Shown one piece after another: positions 37,114 to 47,100 of a DNA stretch of 64,000 bases. The notes beneath the pieces were generated by a model. It had not been told where the DNA came from. It was given only the letters and a program-made list of their open reading frames with translations, and made no database searches. The stretch spans positions 761,501 through 825,500 of the forward strand of contig NZ_CP132543.1 of NCBI RefSeq assembly GCF_030845195.1, in the 5' to 3' direction. Each line of letters opens with the position of its first letter. The stretch's first letter is position 1. This DNA comes from Sanyastnella coralliicola (GTDB lineage: Bacteria; Bacteroidota; Bacteroidia; Flavobacteriales_D; Sanyastnellaceae). Both the position numbers and the translations under genes were made by a program.

Positions 37114-38142
37114 TTATTTAGTCAGTTCAGCCTTGATCTTTTCCTCAAGCTCTTCCATAAGCTCAGGGTTATCGTTCAATAGTTGCTTCACTGCGTCGCG
37201 ACCTTGACCGAGTTTTGTTTCTCCGTAAGAGAACCAAGAACCGCTCTTCTTGATCACGTTCATATCTACACCAAGGTCGATGATTTCTCCAGTTTTTGAG
37301 ATTCCTGTTCCGTACATGATGTCGAATTCAGCACGTTGGAATGGAGGAGCCACCTTGTTCTTCACGATTTTCACTTTTGTACGGTTACCAATAACTCGGT
37401 CTCCGTCTTTGATTTGTGAAGAACGACGAATGTCAATACGTACAGAAGAGTAGAACTTCAGTGCGTTACCACCCGTTGTGGTTTCAGGGTTTCCGAACAT
37501 CACTCCAATCTTCTCACGAAGCTGGTTGATGAAGATACAGCAGCATCCTGTCTTGCTAATCGTAGATGTCAGTTTACGAAGGGCTTTAGACATCAAGCGC
37601 GCCTGAAGACCCACTTGGCTATCAGCCATTTCTCCTTCGATCTCTGCGCGAGGTGTCAGTGCTGCAACAGAGTCAATCACCAAAAGATCAATTGCACCTG
37701 AACGGATCAAGTTATCTGCGATTTCCAGTGCTTGTTCTCCGTTGTCTGGCTGAGAGATCAAAAGGTTCTCAGTATCAACACCTAGGTTTTCAGCATAGAA
37801 CTTATCAAATGCGTGCTCGGCATCGACGATAGCACAGATTCCTCCGTTGCGCTGCGATTCCGCGATAGCGTGAATAGCAAGAGTCGTCTTACCAGAAGAT
37901 TCCGGACCGTAGATCTCAATGATTCGTCCTTGTGGGTATCCACCTATTCCTAGAGCAAGATCAAGGGTCAATGACCCTGAAGGAATGAAATCAAGTTGTT
38001 CGATGGCATCATCGCCCAGCTTCATTACCGTACCTTTTCCGTAGGTCTTCTCCAGCTTGTCTAGAGTCAGCTGAAGCGCCTTCATCTTTTCTTTATTCAC
38101 TTCTGTTGCCATGCGCGTTAGATTTTGAGCTAATGTAGCCAT
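37114..38142 (-). CDS. recA: RecA recombinase
   Basis: 342 residues from the ATG at 38142. The ATG at 38112 (332 residues, '[20 protein letters not shown]') aligns better with Bacteroidota RecA starts. Walker [10 protein letters not shown], Walker B '[10 protein letters not shown]', the L1/L2 loop regions ('[17 protein letters not shown]', '[18 protein letters not shown]') and a short C-terminus are all present. It forms filaments on ssDNA for strand exchange and SOS signalling. Two perfect inverted repeats lie directly upstream. One 13-bp motif lies inside it. Confidence 0.98.
37858..37870 (-). repeat. 13-bp motif CGCTATCGCGGAA, site 4
   Basis: Inside recA, same strand as the gene, read as Ala-Ile-Ala-Glu. 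Confidence 0.75.
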
Positions 38143-38146
38143 TCAA

Positions 38147-38194
38147 CAACGTAATGTATTTACGTTGCGCAATGATTTTGTCCACGTTGGACAA
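38147..38194 (-). promoter_or_regulatory. Two perfect inverted repeats upstream of recA
   Basis: The first has arms CAACGTAA / TTACGTTG with a 5-bp centre (38147-38167). The second has arms TTGTCCA / TGGACAA with a 3-bp centre CGT (38178-38194). They fill most of the 70-bp gap between the second bcp and recA. Their size and place suggest repressor operators, possibly an SOS box. The second could instead be a weak hairpin after bcp, but it lacks a T-run. Confidence 0.45.
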
Positions 38195-38212
38195 TCCTTT
38201 GTGTGTGTAACC

Positions 38213-38677
38213 TTAGAGGCCGAATCCGTTCAAGATCTGATCGGTATGTTCCTTGGCTTTTACCTTCTTAATCACATCCACAATGGTTCCTTCTTCGTCG
38301 ATCAAAAAAGTAGTGCGGTGCGTACCGTCAAACTCTTTACCCATGAACTTCTTAGGTCCCCATACACCAAAGGCTTGTAGTACTGAACGTTCCTCATCTG
38401 CGATTAGAGGAAATGGCAACTCGTGCTTGTCTATGAACTTCTGGTGCTTTTTCGCAGGGTCATCATTCACTCCAATGATCTCAATACCATGTCCTTTCAG
38501 CACGTCGAAGTTGTCGCGGATGTTACAGGCTTGAGTAGTACAAGTTGGAGTCATGTCTCTAGGGTAGAAATATACCACGAGTTTCTTCCCGCTGTAGTCT
38601 GATGATTTGATCTCGCTTCCGTCTTGGATGATTCCTGAAAAGTCAGGGGCTTTATCGCCTTTTTGTAGGGTTGTCAT
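38213..38677 (-). CDS. bcp: Second Bcp/PrxQ-type peroxiredoxin
   Basis: 154 residues with peroxidatic Cys46 in 'PRDMTPTCTTQAC' and a second Cys at 51, as in two-Cys atypical PrxQ enzymes that reduce peroxides with thioredoxin. It is clearly paralogous to the protein at 11594-12052 but diverged ('DMTPTC' in place of 'DDTPGC'). It lies 70 bp upstream of recA on the same strand; the inverted repeats between the two suggest recA has its own control. Confidence 0.92.
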   Translation of the reverse strand: MTTLQKGDKAPDFSGIIQDGSEIKSSDYSGKKLVVYFYPRDMTPTCTTQACNIRDNFDVLKGHGIEIIGVNDDPAKKHQKFIDKHELPFPLIADEERSVLQAFGVWGPKKFMGKEFDGTHRTTFLIDEEGTIVDVIKKVKAKEHTDQILNGFGL

Positions 38678-38895: not shown

Positions 38896-41800
38896 ATGAG
38901 ACACACTACGCTTGTGGTAAACGGAAATACCCGAAACAACAGGGCTTACCGTTTCTCGCGTGTGTTTTTCGCAATGGTTCTGGCACTGGCATTCGCCGGG
39001 ATCAATGCAAACGCACAAACTCCTGAACCCGGTACCGAGGCTTATGCTTCTGCAAAAGATGCAGGTCTGGTGGAGCAAATTTCACTTGCTCTAGACTATG
39101 ACGGGGAATCTCCAAACGTTCAACACTACCTCGATGCAGCTGCTGCTCGCGGTGCTGGATGTTTTATTCCTCACGATCCAATGACATGGACAAACTTCCC
39201 AGGAAATGATGATGGTTCTGAAGGGCCAATCGCACTTCCTTTCTCGTTTGACCTATACGGTAGTGCATACAGCAGCATTTACCTCAATAACAACGGAAAC
39301 CTGACCTTCGGCAATAGCCTTTCGTCATTTACACCAGATGGTTTCCCTATTTCAACGCCAATGATCGCTCCGTTCTGGGGAGACGTTGATACACGAAATG
39401 GAAGAGGTGAAGTTTGGTACTATGTGACTGACCATGCATTGTATGTGAACTGGGTAGAAGTAGGAGTGTTCTCAGCGAACAACCCTGACCTGGAAGATCT
39501 TCGCAATACTTTCCAAGTGATCATTACTGATGGTACAGACGCAGTTCTTGAACCAGGAAACAACATTGCCTTTCATTATGAAATCATGGATTGGACAACC
39601 GGAGACGCTTCTCTCGGTGAACTTGGTTTCGGTGGTGCACCTGCAACTGTTGGTGTAAACGCTGGAAACAATGTAGACTTCATTCAGATTGGACGTTTCG
39701 GAACAGATACCAATGACTATGACGGTCCTGACGGTGAAATTGACGGAGTAAACTGGCTAGAGTTCCAGTGTTTCCAGTTCAACGTTTCAAGTGGAGCGAA
39801 CTTCCCTCCAATTGCACAGAACCTTCCAGTAGGAAACGAAATCAACATTTGTAATGATGAAAGTGCTACGCTTGACTTAGGTTTCATCGGGCCAGAAGGC
39901 GATCAAACGGTAACAGTTGCTGTTTCTTCTGGAGATCCTTACACCTTGAATTCGAACGATGCTGGAAACCCAGCAGAAGTTTCTGTGACATTCGAAGGGC
40001 TTGCACCAGGATCTTACTCATATGATTTCATCGCAACAGATAACGGAGATCCAGTAGGAGAAACAACCGTGACAATTACTGTCAACGTTGAAGATTGTAC
40101 AGGAGGATGCGAACCGAACTTGATGATCGCTTGTCCTGAAGACATGACAGTGGAGTGTGGTAGTGACCTTGACCCAATGTCTCTCGGAATGCCAATGGTT
40201 GATACTGACGATTGTTACGCAGGCTCAATTGATGTCACTTACATGGACGATGTCATTTCTAACAACGGTTGCGAACAAATGATCGCCCGAACGTGGATGG
40301 CTTCAGCAGGTGATGAGACTGACATGTGTACTCAGATGATCACCGTGATTGATACAGAAGCACCGGTACTCAACATGCCTCCACTATACTACTCTCTTGA
40401 GTGGAGCGTATATGAAGGGAACTTCATCGAAGACTTCCTAAACGGACAAATCACACTCGAAGATCTTGAGACACTTAGTCCATTGTTCAACGAGCAACTT
40501 GAAGCCCAAGGGTACTTCTACCCAACAGCATCAGACGCATGTGATGATGACGTTACACCATACTACATCCAATCAGTACTCGGACCTGAAGAATTGGAGT
40601 GTCCGCTTGTAGCAGAAGTGATTTGGTCATTCTATGCTCAAGATGATTGTGGGAATGTAACTGGACCATTTGATGTTGTGTGCGAATTCTTCGACACGAC
40701 TCCTCCAGAGTTCGTTGACTTCCCTGAAGATGTGCTCGTAGAGTGTATCGAAGATGTTCCAGCTCCAGAAGTAGTAGATGCAGAAGATGCATGTGCTGAT
40801 GTGGTTTTAGTAGACATCTTCACAAGCGAAACAGGTTTCCCAACTGATTCATGTGTAGCATCAACGGCATTCGGACCTGGAGATGATTGGGCACTATGGC
40901 TACCAGTATTGGAGACAGAAGGTCTATCACCAACAGATGATTTCGTTCCAGTAGGAGACTTGACATTTGTTAAGTACAACGACGGAACAGCACGTTTGAC
41001 TGGTTCAGTAGTAAACGATGAGAACCCAGCACAAGGATGGGACATTGACCTACACTTCGAGAACCAAGCAACATGGGCAGAGTGGGAAGCAATGGGCCGT
41101 TCTTACAAGGATGACCTAGGACTTGCAGCAGCAGGCGGTAACCTATGGACAACATGGGATTACTACGAGCTAGTAAACGGCTTCTCAACATTGACAGGTA
41201 CAGGAGACTTCGCAGGCGACGTTCTTTACCTAGATCACATGCCATCAAGCTACTACTTCGGATTCCAGTGTGGAGAGGCAGCGAACAACCGCAACTCAAA
41301 CTTCGGTATGAGCGGATGGTTCACTTACTCAGGATTCATCGGAGGTGAAGCAGTAGAAGGACACGGAGACGTAAACGTAGACAAGGAATGTGTTCCAACA
41401 CAGGGTCAAGAGTGTGTGAACGATGATGAGTTCACTTACTACTACCGTGCAGAGGATTCATGTGGAAACGTAGCGTTCGAATCATACACTGTAACAGTAA
41501 ACGATACAACAGCACCAGAATTCACTGTCGTACCAGAAGACATCACAGTAGAATGTGACGAGGTACCAGTACCAGTATTCGAAGGAGTTGAAGCAATCGA
41601 CAACTGTGAGTGTGGGGTAGAAAGCATCGTATACATCGGCGAGACCCTCGTAGATGGAGGTAACGATTGTCTTTACCAGCTACAGCGTGAGTGGGCAGCA
41701 TTCGACTGCTGTGGAAACCGCGCAGACTACGTACAAACAATCACTGTAGAAGACACCACAGCACCAGAGGTTACTTACGTACCAGCTGACGTGACTTACG

Positions 41801-44800
41801 AATGTGACGAAGAAGTACTAGTAGAACTAGCAGAAGGAGTAGACAACTGTCAGGACGTAGAGGTTACTTACGAAGATTCAATCGAAGAAGGTGACTGTCC
41901 ACAGGAATACACGATCACACGTACGTTCTACCTATCAGACGGATGTGATAACGTATCTACAGCAACACAAACAATCTCAGTAGTTGATACAACAGCTCCA
42001 GTATTCGGAGATTACGAAGTATCAGTATCAGTAGAGTGTACAGAAGTTGACGAAGTAGAAGGACCAGACGCAACAGACAACTGTGGTGAGGTAACGATCA
42101 CTTACGAAGACCAACTCCAATCAGGAGGATGTCTAGGAGTAATCGTACGTACCTACACAGCCGTAGATGAGTGTGGTAACGAAGTAACAACAGAGCAGTA
42201 CATCACGATCTTGGATACGACACCACCGGTGATCGAGAATCCAGCAGACATGACAGTAGAGTGTGACGAAGTACCAGCAGCTCCAGGAGCAGACGGTATC
42301 GAGATCTACGACAACTGTGGTGAAGAAGTAGAGGTAACATTCACAGAAGAGATCATCGACGGTCTATGTGAAGACAGCTACACAATCGTATGGACATGGA
42401 CAGCAACTGACTACTGTGAGAACATGTCAGAGGCTTCAACAACAATCACAGTACAAGACACAACAAACCCAGTATTCGTAGAAGTACCGGAAGATGTGAC
42501 TTACGAGTGTGACGAAGAAGTACCAGCATGTAGCTCAGACGACGTAGTAGCAGAAGATAACTGTGACAACGACGTAGTAGTAGAATGTGAAGATCAGATC
42601 ATCGACGGAGACTGTCCACAAGAGTACACGATCCAGCGTATCTACCGCGCATTCGATAACTGTGGTAACCAAGCGATCTACGTACAGAACATCTCAGTAG
42701 TTGACACCACTGCACCAATGTTCCCAGAACTAGCAGAGTTGACTTACGAGTGTGACGAAGAGATTCCAGTGATCCTACCAGACGCAACAGATAACTGTGG
42801 TGTGGTAACGGTTACTTACGAAGACTCAACAGTAGACGGAGAGTGTCCACAGGAATACACTATCACACGTACTTACACAGCAGAAGACGAGTGTGGAAAC
42901 ACAAGCTCAGCTTCACAGACAATCAACGTGGTTGACACAACTGCACCGGTATTCGATGAGTACTCAGTAGAAGTAGAAGCACCATGTGATAACGTAGACG
43001 TGGCGATCCTAACAGCTACAGATAACTGTGGTGAGGTAACTGTGACATACGAAGACACACCAGTGTCAGGAGGATGTGCAGGAACAATCATCCGTGATTA
43101 CGTAGCAGTAGACGAGTGTGGAAACGAAGCAACAGCACAGCAGATCATCTCACTAGTTGATGAAGTAGCTCCTGTATTCGTTGAAGTACCTGCAGACATG
43201 ACTTACGAGTGTGACCAGGAAGTACCAGCATGTAGCTCAGACGACGTAGCAGTTGAAGACAACTGTACAGAGGTTGAGGTTAGCTGTGCAGACGTTACAA
43301 TCGACGGAGACTGTCCACAGGAATATACAATCGAGCGTACATACACAGCAGAAGATAACTGTGGAAACATCTCAACATACACACAGACGATCACAGTAGT
43401 TGATACAACAGCTCCTGAGTTCACAGAAGTACCAGCAGACGCAATGTACGAGTGTGATGAAGAGATCCCAGCAATCAACGCTGAAGCAGAAGATAACTGT
43501 GGTGATGTAACAGTAACATGGGAAGATTCAATCGCCGATGGAGACTGTCCACAAGAGTACACGATCACACGTACATTCACAGCAATGGACGAGTGTGGAA
43601 ACTCAAGCACAGAGACACAGACAATCACAGTAGTTGATACAACAGCTCCTGAATTCACAATGGTACCAGCTGACGCCACTTACGAGTGTGACGAAGAAGT
43701 ACTAGTGATGATGGCTGAAGCATCTGATAACTGTGGTGAAGTAACAGTTACATACGAAGATTCAACAGTAGAAGGTGAGTGTCCTCAAGAGTACACAATC
43801 ACACGTACGTTCACTGCAGAAGATGAGTGTGGTAACTCAAGCACTGCAACACAGACAATCAACGTGTTTGACACCACTGCACCGGTATTCGATGAGTACC
43901 CAGTAGAGGTAGAAGCACCATGTGATAACGTAGACGTGGCGATCCTAACAGCTACAGATAACTGTGGTGAGGTAACTGTAACCTACGAAGACACACCAGT
44001 GTCAGGAGGATGTGCAGGAACAATCATCCGTGATTACGTAGCAGTAGACGAGTGTGGCAACGAATCAACAGCACAGCAGATCATCTCACTAGTTGATGAA
44101 GTAGCTCCTGTATTCGTTGAAGTACCTGCAGACATGACTTACGAGTGTGACCAGGAAGTACCAGCATGTAGCTCAGACGACGTAGCAGTTGAAGACAACT
44201 GTACAGAGGTTGAGGTTAGCTGTGCAGACGTTACAATCGACGGAGACTGTCCACAGGAATACACTATCGAGCGTACATACACAGCAGAAGATAACTGTGG
44301 AAACATCTCAACATACACACAGACGATCACAGTAGTTGATACAACAGCCCCTGAGTTCACAGACGTACCAGCAGACGCAACGTACGAGTGTGATGAAGAG
44401 ATCCCAGCAATCAACGCTGAAGCAGAAGATAACTGTGGTGATGTAACAGTAACATGGGAAGATTCAATCGCCGATGGTGACTGTCCACAAGAGTACACGA
44501 TCACACGTACATTCACAGCAATGGACGATTGTGGAAACTCAAGCACAGAGACACAGACAATCACAGTAGTTGATACAACAGCTCCTGAATTCACGGCAGT
44601 AGGTGAAGATGTAACGATTGAGTGTGACGAAGAGCTTCCAGCTCCATTCGCTGAAGCAACAGACAACTGCGGTGAAGTAACGATTGAGGTGTCTCCGGAG
44701 ATCATCGATGGCGACTGTCCACAGGAGTACACAATGATCCGCACATACACAGCAATGGATGACTGCGGTAATTCAACTACAGCAACTCAAACAATCACAG

Positions 44801-47100
44801 TAATTGACACTACGGCACCGGTATTCGATGAGTACCCAATCCAAGTAGACGTTCCTTGTGATGAAGTAGATGTCATGACGATCACGGCAACAGACAACTG
44901 TGGTGAGGTAACAATCACCTACACTGAGTTCATGATCTCAGGTGGATGTGCTGGAAGCATGATTCGCGATTACGTTGCAGTTGATGAATGTGGAAATGAA
45001 GCTTATGCTCAGCAAATCATCAGCCTTGTTGATGAAGTAGCTCCAGAAGCTGAAAACGTTCCGGCAGATGCTACATTCGAATGTGATGAAGAGATCATCC
45101 TTGGTGAGCCAACCTTCACTGATAACTGTGATGATGACTTGGAAATCACTTACAACGAAGTAACGGAAGACCTCGATTGTTTCTACCAGATCATTCGCAC
45201 TTGGACTGCCATTGATCACTGTGATAATGAAACAACCGTTTCTCAAGTCATTACAGTAACAGATACAACAGCTCCTTCTATTGAAGCCGGAGATGACATG
45301 ACCATCGAGTGTACAGCGATCATTCCTGATCCATCGTTCGAGGTGTCTGACAACTGTGATGAAGACGTAATGGTTGACATCACTTCTGAAATGTTCGATG
45401 GTGATTGTCCGCAAGAGTACACGATGGTTCGCACGTACACTGCAACAGATGATTGTGGTAACGTTTCTGTAGATACTCAGACAATCACAGTAGTTGATAC
45501 AACTGCTCCTGTATTCATTGCAGTAGCGGAAGATGTTACTGTTGAGTGTGATGAAGAGCTTCCTGCTCCTTTCGCTAGCGCGGAAGACAACTGTGGTGAA
45601 GTGACAATTGAAGTATCGCCAGAGATTATCGACGGGGAATGCGGAAATGAATACACAATGGTTCGCACTTACACTGCAACTGATGAATGTGGAAACGCCA
45701 GCACTGCGACGCAAACAATCACAGTAGTTGATACAACTGCTCCTGAATTCACGAACGTACCATCGAGCATGACAGTTGAATGTCTAAGCGATGTACCGGA
45801 CATGATGACATTGGCAGCTACTGATAACTGTGGAGATGCAGAAGTAGTGTGTAATGAAGTAAGTGACCTTGACGATTGTGGTAACGGTGTAATCATCCGC
45901 ACTTGCACTGCAACTGACGCTTGTGGAAACACAACTCAGGTGAGCTACTCAATCACAATCAACGATACCACTGCTCCTACACTTAATGATCTTCCAGAAG
46001 AGAACCTAGTGATCGATTGTGAGGATGATGTTCCTGCACCAGCAGATGTAACAGCAACTGACAACTGTGACAATGATCTTGAAGTGATCTTCACTGAAGA
46101 GATCATCGGAGACCTTCCTGCAGAGGGAAGTTCAGCAGATTGTGTAGCAACTACGCCAGAAGCTTACTTCGAAGGTGAAACGTGTGGTGGAACTGATCCT
46201 TGGAGCTTGGTACTATTCAACTTCGGTGGAGAAGAAGCTGCATTGTATAGCACAATCGAAGCAAACTGGGTTGAATACCCTGATGGTACAGCAACACTCA
46301 CAGGTTCTGTATTCTGTAATGACAATCCTGATGCAGGATGGGAGATTAACGTAGCCTTCGAAAATGGCATGCCATGGACAGAGTGGTCTACACAAGGCTT
46401 CCCAACTGGATACAAAGATGATTGTGACATTGCAGGAGATAACTTCCTTGATTGGATGTACTACATCATGTCTGAAGGAGCTACACTCACAGGATGGGGT
46501 GATTACGAAGGAGCAACGCTCAACTTGGATCACGCACCGAGCAACCTATACTACGGTTACCAAGTAGGTGTTGCGGCAAACAACGTGAACGACAACTACG
46601 GATCTGGAGGATGGTTCACTTACAGTGGAGAATTCAACGGAGAGGAAGTGTACGGTTCAGGTGATTTTGCCTTCGATCACGATTGTTGTCCTCAGTACTC
46701 AGTAGAGCGCACTTGGTGTGTAACTGATTGTTCTGGAAATGAAACTTGCTTCACGCAAATGATCTCATTCGATGACTTGAGTGATGACAACCCATTGGTT
46801 GATCTAGACTTCGAAGAGATGGCAGCTGAGCGTGGTGATTTCGAGATTGTTCGTCTTTCTCCGAACCCAGCAGAAAGCTACGCTCGAGTTGAAGTAATGG
46901 CTTACAAAGGAACTCCAGTTCGTATCGAGCTGGTTGACCTCAACGGTAAAGTGGTTGACGTGATCTTCGAAGGTGACCTTTCAAGAGGTCAGACGTTCAG
47001 AACGATTGTCAACACAAACAACCTATACAACGGCGTTTACACCGTGAGAGCATACTCTCAAATGCATGCTGATGTAACGAAGCTTGTCATCCAGAAATAA
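38896..47100 (+). CDS. Giant NIDO/HYR-repeat surface protein (2734 aa) with T9SS type A tail
   Basis: The signal peptide ends near residue 41 (VLALAFAGINANAQ). Residues about 90-300 match a nidogen-like (NIDO) domain ('LPFSFDLYGSAYSSIYLNNNGNLTFG', 'STPMIAPFWGDVDTR'). A cadherin/Ig-like segment follows, then some twenty HYR modules of about 78 residues with 'VDTTAPEF', 'YECDEE', 'DNCG.V', 'CPQEYTI.RT' and 'DECGN' landmarks. The shared large module occurs twice (40831-41391 and 46129-46686), each time inserted inside an HYR module. The last 80 residues form a T9SS sorting domain (LSPNPAESYARVEV to DVTKLVIQK). It is probably a cell-surface adhesin. Codon choice in about 40850-44600 is strikingly uniform. 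A terminator follows at 47118. Confidence 0.88.
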   Translation: MRHTTLVVNGNTRNNRAYRFSRVFFAMVLALAFAGINANAQTPEPGTEAYASAKDAGLVEQISLALDYDGESPNVQHYLDAAAARGAGCFIPHDPMTWTNFPGNDDGSEGPIALPFSFDLYGSAYSSIYLNNNGNLTFGNSLSSFTPDGFPISTPMIAPFWGDVDTRNGRGEVWYYVTDHALYVNWVEVGVFSANNPDLEDLRNTFQVIITDGTDAVLEPGNNIAFHYEIMDWTTGDASLGELGFGGAPATVGVNAGNNVDFIQIGRFGTDTNDYDGPDGEIDGVNWLEFQCFQFNVSSGANFPPIAQNLPVGNEINICNDESATLDLGFIGPEGDQTVTVAVSSGDPYTLNSNDAGNPAEVSVTFEGLAPGSYSYDFIATDNGDPVGETTVTITVNVEDCTGGCEPNLMIACPEDMTVECGSDLDPMSLGMPMVDTDDCYAGSIDVTYMDDVISNNGCEQMIARTWMASAGDETDMCTQMITVIDTEAPVLNMPPLYYSLEWSVYEGNFIEDFLNGQITLEDLETLSPLFNEQLEAQGYFYPTASDACDDDVTPYYIQSVLGPEELECPLVAEVIWSFYAQDDCGNVTGPFDVVCEFFDTTPPEFVDFPEDVLVECIEDVPAPEVVDAEDACADVVLVDIFTSETGFPTDSCVASTAFGPGDDWALWLPVLETEGLSPTDDFVPVGDLTFVKYNDGTARLTGSVVNDENPAQGWDIDLHFENQATWAEWEAMGRSYKDDLGLAAAGGNLWTTWDYYELVNGFSTLTGTGDFAGDVLYLDHMPSSYYFGFQCGEAANNRNSNFGMSGWFTYSGFIGGEAVEGHGDVNVDKECVPTQGQECVNDDEFTYYYRAEDSCGNVAFESYTVTVNDTTAPEFTVVPEDITVECDEVPVPVFEGVEAIDNCECGVESIVYIGETLVDGGNDCLYQLQREWAAFDCCGNRADYVQTITVEDTTAPEVTYVPADVTYECDEEVLVELAEGVDNCQDVEVTYEDSIEEGDCPQEYTITRTFYLSDGCDNVSTATQTISVVDTTAPVFGDYEVSVSVECTEVDEVEGPDATDNCGEVTITYEDQLQSGGCLGVIVRTYTAVDECGNEVTTEQYITILDTTPPVIENPADMTVECDEVPAAPGADGIEIYDNCGEEVEVTFTEEIIDGLCEDSYTIVWTWTATDYCENMSEASTTITVQDTTNPVFVEVPEDVTYECDEEVPACSSDDVVAEDNCDNDVVVECEDQIIDGDCPQEYTIQRIYRAFDNCGNQAIYVQNISVVDTTAPMFPELAELTYECDEEIPVILPDATDNCGVVTVTYEDSTVDGECPQEYTITRTYTAEDECGNTSSASQTINVVDTTAPVFDEYSVEVEAPCDNVDVAILTATDNCGEVTVTYEDTPVSGGCAGTIIRDYVAVDECGNEATAQQIISLVDEVAPVFVEVPADMTYECDQEVPACSSDDVAVEDNCTEVEVSCADVTIDGDCPQEYTIERTYTAEDNCGNISTYTQTITVVDTTAPEFTEVPADAMYECDEEIPAINAEAEDNCGDVTVTWEDSIADGDCPQEYTITRTFTAMDECGNSSTETQTITVVDTTAPEFTMVPADATYECDEEVLVMMAEASDNCGEVTVTYEDSTVEGECPQEYTITRTFTAEDECGNSSTATQTINVFDTTAPVFDEYPVEVEAPCDNVDVAILTATDNCGEVTVTYEDTPVSGGCAGTIIRDYVAVDECGNESTAQQIISLVDEVAPVFVEVPADMTYECDQEVPACSSDDVAVEDNCTEVEVSCADVTIDGDCPQEYTIERTYTAEDNCGNISTYTQTITVVDTTAPEFTDVPADATYECDEEIPAINAEAEDNCGDVTVTWEDSIADGDCPQEYTITRTFTAMDDCGNSSTETQTITVVDTTAPEFTAVGEDVTIECDEELPAPFAEATDNCGEVTIEVSPEIIDGDCPQEYTMIRTYTAMDDCGNSTTATQTITVIDTTAPVFDEYPIQVDVPCDEVDVMTITATDNCGEVTITYTEFMISGGCAGSMIRDYVAVDECGNEAYAQQIISLVDEVAPEAENVPADATFECDEEIILGEPTFTDNCDDDLEITYNEVTEDLDCFYQIIRTWTAIDHCDNETTVSQVITVTDTTAPSIEAGDDMTIECTAIIPDPSFEVSDNCDEDVMVDITSEMFDGDCPQEYTMVRTYTATDDCGNVSVDTQTITVVDTTAPVFIAVAEDVTVECDEELPAPFASAEDNCGEVTIEVSPEIIDGECGNEYTMVRTYTATDECGNASTATQTITVVDTTAPEFTNVPSSMTVECLSDVPDMMTLAATDNCGDAEVVCNEVSDLDDCGNGVIIRTCTATDACGNTTQVSYSITINDTTAPTLNDLPEENLVIDCEDDVPAPADVTATDNCDNDLEVIFTEEIIGDLPAEGSSADCVATTPEAYFEGETCGGTDPWSLVLFNFGGEEAALYSTIEANWVEYPDGTATLTGSVFCNDNPDAGWEINVAFENGMPWTEWSTQGFPTGYKDDCDIAGDNFLDWMYYIMSEGATLTGWGDYEGATLNLDHAPSNLYYGYQVGVAANNVNDNYGSGGWFTYSGEFNGEEVYGSGDFAFDHDCCPQYSVERTWCVTDCSGNETCFTQMISFDDLSDDNPLVDLDFEEMAAERGDFEIVRLSPNPAESYARVEVMAYKGTPVRIELVDLNGKVVDVIFEGDLSRGQTFRTIVNTNNLYNGVYTVRAYSQMHADVTKLVIQK
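40831..41391 (+). repeat. Copy of the shared HYR-inserted module (first in the 2734-aa protein)
   Basis: It encodes 'DDWALWLPVLE', 'DGTARLTGSVVNDENPAQGW', 'SYYFGFQCGEAANNRNSNFG' and 'GWFTYSGF'. This is the most divergent copy of the four, inserted before the 'FTYYYRAEDSCGN' strand of its HYR host. Confidence 0.7.
42951..44592 (+). repeat. Tandem duplication, period 936 bp, in the 2734-aa gene
   Basis: About 706 bp from 42951 recurs from 43887 with only scattered changes. The period of 312 codons equals four HYR modules. Sequence upstream of 42951 and downstream of about 43656 is related to its counterpart but much less similar, so the duplicated block is roughly three modules long within a four-module period. 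Confidence 0.85.
45573..45585 (+). repeat. 13-bp motif CGCTAGCGCGGAA, site 5
   Basis: Inside the 2734-residue gene, read as Ala-Ser-Ala-Glu. It interrupts the sequence otherwise shared with the homologous module near 44640, which has 'GCT GAA GCA ACA' here. Confidence 0.75.
46129..46686 (+). repeat. Copy of the shared HYR-inserted module (second in the 2734-aa protein)
   Basis: Closest to the copy at 6937-7488 ('[13 protein letters not shown]', '[12 protein letters not shown]', '[10 protein letters not shown]'), with the same boundaries inside the HYR host. Confidence 0.75.

Follow-up and report, generated by a model that had tools for sequence, protein, structure and literature searches.

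A conserved palindrome upstream of recA in Sanyastnella coralliicola and its relatives as the probable operator of a WYL-regulated DNA-repair regulon

A 64,000-nucleotide stretch of the Sanyastnella coralliicola genome (hereafter the window) was analysed around the recA gene. A palindrome with the core CGTAA-N5-TTACG upstream of recA is probably the operator through which a WYL activator (wHTH-WYL-WCX architecture) controls a DNA-repair regulon; this activator would have replaced the S24 protein at recA. The dyad was conserved among relatives, varied by matched changes on its two sides, kept a fixed spacing to the -7 promoter box and recurred before a common set of target genes. A WYL protein co-occurred with the site and was linked to it by gene position, its recognition helix changed together with the motif, and the S24 genes did not match the distribution of the site. 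Judged from these comparisons of sequence, the regulator of the palindrome is likely to be the WYL protein rather than an S24/LexA-like protein.

Two perfect inverted repeats had been claimed in front of recA, and re-reading of the sequence confirmed both, with the coordinates and arm lengths as described. The first lies at 38147–38167 (8-bp arms and a 5-bp centre; CAACGTAAATACATTACGTTG on the complementary strand), with its core at 38150–38164, and the second lies at 38178–38194 (7-bp arms and a 3-bp centre; TTGTCCA-CGT-TGGACAA, TTGTCCANNNTGGACAA). They were the only perfect inverted repeats with arms of at least 6 bp in the 70-bp gap (38143–38212) that separates recA from the upstream gene of a bcp/PrxQ-type thiol peroxidase (38213–38677, complementary strand). 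The window contained 43 perfect repeats with arms of at least 7 bp and a spacer of up to 10 bp, and the reported pair was its sole non-overlapping pair (arms of at least 7 bp) within 48 bp. An 8-bp arm together with a separate second arm of at least 7 bp appeared in 0.08% of 5000 dinucleotide shuffles of the 70-bp gap. Adjoining the recA locus, the region 38896–47100 encodes a secreted-looking protein of 2734 amino acids in which DTTAPEF and CDEE motifs recur in many near-identical repeats.

Conservation of the first palindrome was evaluated in 150 relatives. A recA match at the cut-off was lacking in 16, and 127 upstream regions were scored from the remaining 134; six genomes were left out as fragments or not fetched (G061, G088, G140, G121, G058, and G039) and one was not located (G142), while the mislocated G023 was counted as a miss. 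G003 and G131 are apparently one genome, and only G131 was within the 127. In 65 of the 127 relatives (the genome of the window included), the 250 bp in front of recA contained an exact CGTAA-N5-TTACG, and in 14 more a copy with a single mismatch, compared with a mean of 0.03 and a maximum of 1 exact match for 59 permuted-arm controls. The conservation in relatives that the original prediction had proposed as a check could thus be observed for the first palindrome. Among the 26 two-mismatch cases, 17 were the compensated palindrome TGTAA-N5-TTACA (17 of 127 genomes), and CATAA-N5-TTATG, altered in both arms, was found in one of the 127; the site of G155 reads AGAACATAA-N5-TTATGTTCT. Where bcp abuts recA (families f2 and f4, and G125), the site was located upstream of bcp instead in seven of nine genomes (G097, G108, G099, G110, G117, G128, and G125), and no site was found upstream of bcp in the pairs of G123 and G132. 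In G102, the site precedes an operon consisting of a gene for a 132-amino-acid protein, bcp, and recA. Among 80 named recA loci, CGTAA-N5-TTACG (up to one mismatch) was upstream in 12, mostly labelled Flavobacteriales or Crocinitomix/Crocinitomicaceae. CTAA-N5-TTAG was seen at nine, all of them loci other than the CGTAA ones and including Pedobacter, Mucilaginibacter, Sphingobacterium, and Marinoscillum, and GGA-N5-TCC at four, one of which (L001) also carries CGTAA.

The second palindrome was patchily conserved, in part of its own genus and in genus g3, where full copies were present (e.g., G029 and G096). The full palindrome was absent in G008, a congener of the genome studied, and no further exact copy was found in the whole own genome. 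In family f1, only its right-hand ACAAA, an A-rich element near -55 (38177–38181, complementary strand), was kept at a fixed distance from the operator. It was dropped as an operator because it has no other exact genomic copy and ACAAA alone is conserved in relatives, and a terminator was ruled out since neither strand shows a run of T after it, as judged by eye. The proposal of an SOS-type operator at this place therefore survives for the first palindrome, which is conserved and stands at repair genes, and not for the second. In the f1 recA upstream regions, a second A-rich block of columns was seen 34–36 bases before the operator core; it lies two helical turns (about 21 bp) farther upstream than the conserved ACAAA and suggests contacts resembling those of an UP element.

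The promoter layout was assessed by scanning 100 site-bearing recA upstream regions for a -7 box (consensus TAnnTTTG). A box scoring at least 5 of 6 could be identified in 79 of the 100. Its start followed the site by 11 or 12 bases in 76 of these and by 4 bases in three, while the control window gave 17 boxes scattered over ten positions; tied box positions were settled towards 12 in test and control alike. TTG, the usual -33 element, was present 17–23 bases before the -7 box in 6 of the 76 promoters. Since the -7 box of Flavobacterium psychrophilum spans -12 to -5 (PMC9723704), the centre of the site would fall near -32/-33. In S. coralliicola, the box TACATTAG occupies 38130–38137 on the complementary strand, 12 bp downstream of the operator core, and the transcription start is predicted near 38125. 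At zero mismatches, the operator with its -7 box occurred at recA only in the 4.1-Mb own genome. Because the box falls within the opening codons of recA as read from the longest ORF (start 38142), the start of recA is more likely to be the second ATG, giving a coding sequence at 37114–38112 on the complementary strand. The description of the palindrome as directly upstream of recA is accurate for the first ATG at 38142, but from the likelier start at 38112 the palindrome lies approximately 35–55 bp upstream.

To describe the candidate regulon, 65 loci around exact sites in relatives were fetched and sorted by the gene downstream, and a target gene could be assigned in 45 and none in 20. Twenty sites were directly before recA and one was before the recA operon of G102. 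Ten preceded a small gene of the p137 family, eight were at a p77 gene, three were before radA, two were before a Y-family polymerase gene, and one was before a PA0069-type (splB-like) radical-SAM gene. One radA locus (L161) matched TIGR00416 above the cut-off and appears to be the same gene as that of L211. The spacing of 11 or 12 to the -7 box recurred at nearly all of the p137, p77, polymerase, radA, and radical-SAM sites (two p77 loci showed a spacing of 15 and weak box scores), and it was absent at the presumed chance sites L196 and L197. Recurrence at other repair genes, a further expectation of the original prediction, was thus evident in relatives, at the Y-family polymerase, radA, and splB-like radical-SAM genes. 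It did not extend to the own genome, which contained three copies of the exact core, at recA and at the small genes p137 and p77 (both with weak boxes), and none at its two Y-family polymerase genes. Upstream of one of these two (in L134) no operator was seen by eye, and the other (in L133) has a 22-bp gap to the preceding gene. In the searched genomes, raw whole-genome counts of the 15-bp pattern were no higher than those of the reversed control; the significance of the motif rests on position, not on number.

Neither p137 nor p77 had a Pfam or NCBIfam match above the cut-off. The p137 proteins outside f1 formed one family in a leave-one-out hmmsearch (8 of 10 at E ≤3e-12, Z=1000; L188 and L202 weak), with a weak tie to the p137 proteins of f1 (hhalign probability 53%). 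Most of those outside f1 (L151, L156, L166, L173, L174, L203, and L204) have -IRA or -IVA at the C-terminus; this ending could be the tag by which a damage-induced protein is quickly degraded. A two-mismatch operator with a box was also observed in the own genome at G000:C1:3730140-3730173 (L465), before a gene named by eye as DNA N6-methylase-like, and an operator with a box stood upstream of DNA N6-methylase or HsdM-like genes (by eye) at L150, L162, and L170 in two relatives; such copies suggest that the regulon may reach restriction-modification genes. Exact operators before small or transposase-like ORFs (L192, L194, L195, L201, and L216), some of them near-identical between genomes, may be copies travelling with mobile elements.

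The WYL protein matched PF13280 with 76.5 bits (cut-off 21.8), and its WCX domain matched PF25583 with 36.6 bits (cut-off 23.9). Its N-terminal region had no Pfam match; position and conservation point to a helix-turn-helix there. Sequence matches in the PDB were PafBC, DriD (8tp8), and CapW. Trp203, Tyr204, and Arg222 were kept in at least 95% of 68 WYL proteins and align with W195, Y196, and R214 of PafB, while PafB R211, one of two arginines needed for binding of single-stranded DNA, aligns with Ala219; sensing of single-stranded DNA is therefore plausible but not secured. The WYL-WCX gene of the own genome is followed on the same strand by p137 and p77; one site sits just past the stop codon of the WYL gene and a second lies 446 bp further on. 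Of 30 WYL loci, 14 had a zero-mismatch site immediately behind the WYL gene, about 450 bp farther along, or at both places, and 16 had no such site nearby. The sites at WYL loci varied in step with those at recA: TTGTAA-N5-TTACAA was found at the WYL gene in G016, G038, and G019, and the TTGTAA version at the WYL loci L259, L264, and L267 was equal wholly or by half to the respective recA sites. For WYL loci of other families (15 fetched, 14 scanned), a single generic site was found, distant from the gene. Outside f1, where the site and the WYL gene are mostly not neighbours, the link between them thus rests on co-occurrence.

Co-occurrence with the site was compared for two regulators, WYL and S24, in a set that again comprised 127 genomes, with G023 dropped and G142 added from L186. 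Site-positives set by hand were G014, G025, G033, G106, and G155 (two mismatches), eight operon-level cases, and G142. Like these calls, the cut-offs for presence (E 1e-48 for WYL and 1e-34 for S24) were chosen after the data had been seen, and the resulting p values overstate independence because the genomes are related. Among genomes at least 90% complete, 74 had both site and WYL, three had the site only (G037, G051, and G128), four had WYL with no site found (G103, G105, G123, and G132), and nine had neither (Fisher p 1.9e-7). The corresponding counts for S24 were 58 with both, 19 with the site only, nine with S24 only, and four with neither (p 0.73). An S24 match at the cut-off was thus missing in 19 of the 77 near-complete site-bearing genomes, and the site was kept while S24 was missing at the cut-off in genera g14, g20, g42, and others.

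Comparison of 68 WYL proteins further revealed that the motif and the recognition helix change together. In T-type genomes, in which the outer core positions of the recA site are T and/or A, all 18 WYL proteins had STIDKD (or STVDKD) and also shared Leu49, Arg28, Gly43, and Ala107. The C-type WYL proteins of f1 had Glu53 (STIEKD or STLEKD) in 28 of 28 cases, and so did 13 from other families. Five of 337 positions separated the two types perfectly, and four of these were within residues 1–80, where the wHTH is expected. The T group formed one clade in the tree (100/100), so the shift of motif and helix represents one coupled event and not many. G117, which is outside the T clade, has STIDKD and yet a CGTAA-type site upstream of bcp; Asp53 alone therefore does not set the preference for T.

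SOS genes of Bacteroidetes are reported to be controlled by an S24 'non-canonical LexA' through CTAA-N5-TTAG or GGA-N5-TCC, and a diverged motif, TTAC-N5-GTAA, has also been described (PMC8565304). The premise that the SOS boxes of Bacteroidota are not well defined accordingly needs to be qualified, as they are partly defined in that survey; the recA site CGTAA-N5-TTACG, however, is none of these three motifs. It contains GTAA-N5-TTAC, which has the N5 build of the known boxes and a different dyad. The own genome has a single S24-domain match (G000:C1:3362488-3363270) with an HTH_3-type N-terminus, for which no match to PF01726 of canonical LexA was listed. Even at one mismatch, the site was within 1.5 kb at none of 30 S24 loci. 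CTA-N7-TAG was found in 11 of the 30 S24 promoters, two of these being exact CTAA-N5-TTAG, and since such promoters occur where recA has CGTAA-N5-TTACG, two operators coexist in one genome. In genus g5, the S24 promoters L273, L274, L277, L279–L281, and L285 share a conserved TTGCTA-N7-TAGCAA about 40 bp before the S24 gene, which by its sequence looks like the own operator of S24, a drifted CTAA-N5-TTAG. The S24 protein had been the first hypothesis for the regulator and was dropped because its loci lack the site, its own promoters are of the CTA type, and it shows no co-occurrence with the site.

The proposed mechanism would begin with a symmetric WYL homodimer binding CGTAA-N5-TTACG centred about -33. 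Bound 11–12 bp before the TAnnTTTG box, the dimer would stand in for the missing -33 element and recruit or position RNA polymerase for recA. DNA damage would induce the genes through single-stranded DNA held by the WYL domain, by analogy with PafBC and DriD. An activator is favoured over a repressor because of the constant distance to the -7 box, the lack of a TTG at -33 in most promoters, and the precedents of DriD and PafBC. The main rival, which we consider possible but rather unlikely, places the WYL protein at the same site as a CapW/BrxR-like repressor that blocks polymerase at -33 until DNA is damaged. It fits an operator that overlaps the place of the -33 element, WYL repressors such as CapW and BrxR are known (PMC10693628), and CapW is itself among the PDB sequence matches. 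A repressor, however, could work without a distance to the -7 box that varies by no more than 1 bp between unrelated targets, the promoters mostly lack the TTG that would let polymerase work alone, and the characterised WYL members of DNA-damage responses, DriD and PafBC, activate.

It is improbable that the site is instead a drifted SOS box of an S24 non-canonical LexA encoded elsewhere in the genome. GTAA-N5-TTAC differs from CTAA-N5-TTAG by one base per arm and has the same dyad-N5-dyad build, the motif is known to diverge (PMC8565304), and the own S24 protein has the HTH, the Ala-Gly pair, and the Ser/Lys positions as expected (residues by eye). These resemblances are outweighed by the absence of the site at all 30 S24 loci, by the CTA-type boxes at 11 S24 promoters, some where recA has the CGTAA site, and by the 19 near-complete genomes with a site and no S24 match, with no association between the two. 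The least probable reading, to which hardly any weight is given, takes the palindromes as chance or structural inverted repeats (a terminator or hairpin) with no dedicated regulator. Small intergenic inverted repeats are common, as the count for the window illustrates, and the second palindrome has no regulon; for that palindrome alone this reading remains. For 38147–38167 it is refuted by the conservation, the two-sided changes, the promoter spacing, and the recurrence at repair genes.

The WYL activator favoured here resembles several known systems. Mycobacterial PafBC is likewise a WYL-WCX factor, controls recA and many repair genes, and acts by sigma adaptation with single-stranded DNA as the trigger (PMC6789036, PMC11804915). 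It activates by replacing the -35 contact, as is proposed here by analogy, but it is a heterodimer on a non-palindromic -26 motif and works beside a true LexA system, whereas the Bacteroidota system would use one protein and a perfect palindrome centred about -33. DriD of Caulobacter crescentus is a homodimeric WYL protein of the DNA-damage response with single-stranded DNA as effector; it binds the palindrome ATACGAC-N7-GTCGTAT, which overlaps -35 at a fixed distance from -10, comparable to the fixed -7 spacing here (PMC12340889). Its motif and spacer length differ from those of the recA site, its host also has SOS induction, and recA is not among the targets named for it in that source (didA, bapE, recJ, dnaG, and a divergent operon). 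SiwR of M. smegmatis, also a homodimeric WYL protein, binds a palindrome across -35 to -10 of a neighbouring damage-responsive operon, but is a local regulator of DinB/YfiT-like metalloenzyme genes, unlike the control of recA proposed here (PMC10693628). Non-canonical LexA (S24, COG2932) shares the phylum, N5-spaced palindromes, and part of the targets (recA, DinB/UmuC, and SplB-like radical SAM) with the present system (PMC8565304). It acts by de-repression through self-cleavage, while the motif here is another, the protein family is likely another, and activation by WYL is what the promoter layout suggests. None of the terms WYL, Crocinitomi*, Schleiferi*, Cryomorph*, Owenweeksia, and Fluviicola was matched in the main text of PMC8565304.

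That WYL proteins control DNA-damage genes is as such already known. What appears to be new is the probable occurrence of this control in another phylum, with a new palindrome, and on recA itself. By titles and abstracts, the literature searched contained no described WYL recA/DNA-damage system in Bacteroidota (subscription papers and preprints were mostly outside the coverage), and none in that on the Flavobacteriales SOS regulon and Fluviicola LexA/recA. The motif, the promoter rule, and the gene list are now ready for testing, and the site and its protein offer a natural operator/recognition-helix pair (C or T in the site, Glu or Asp in the helix) for studies of WYL specificity. If the proposal is true, the regulon adds the uncharacterised small protein families p137 and p77, and Bacteroidota would join actinobacteria and Caulobacter in WYL control of DNA-damage genes.

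A survey published in NAR in 2021 described Bacteroidetes clades in which the S24 SOS regulator is absent or diverged and tied this to a loss of regulation (PMC8565304). If the WYL reading is true, at least one lineage kept damage control of recA and handed it to a different class of protein, with the logic reversed from de-repression to activation. With the palindrome replacing the -33 element for a WYL activator, induction of recA would not depend on RecA-driven cleavage of a repressor. In a large part of the order, recA and the repair regulon may have moved from a cleavable LexA-type repressor to a WYL activator that reads single-stranded DNA, a proposal for which we regard the balance as even, and lineages without S24 would then keep WYL as the likely sole SOS-like master regulator.
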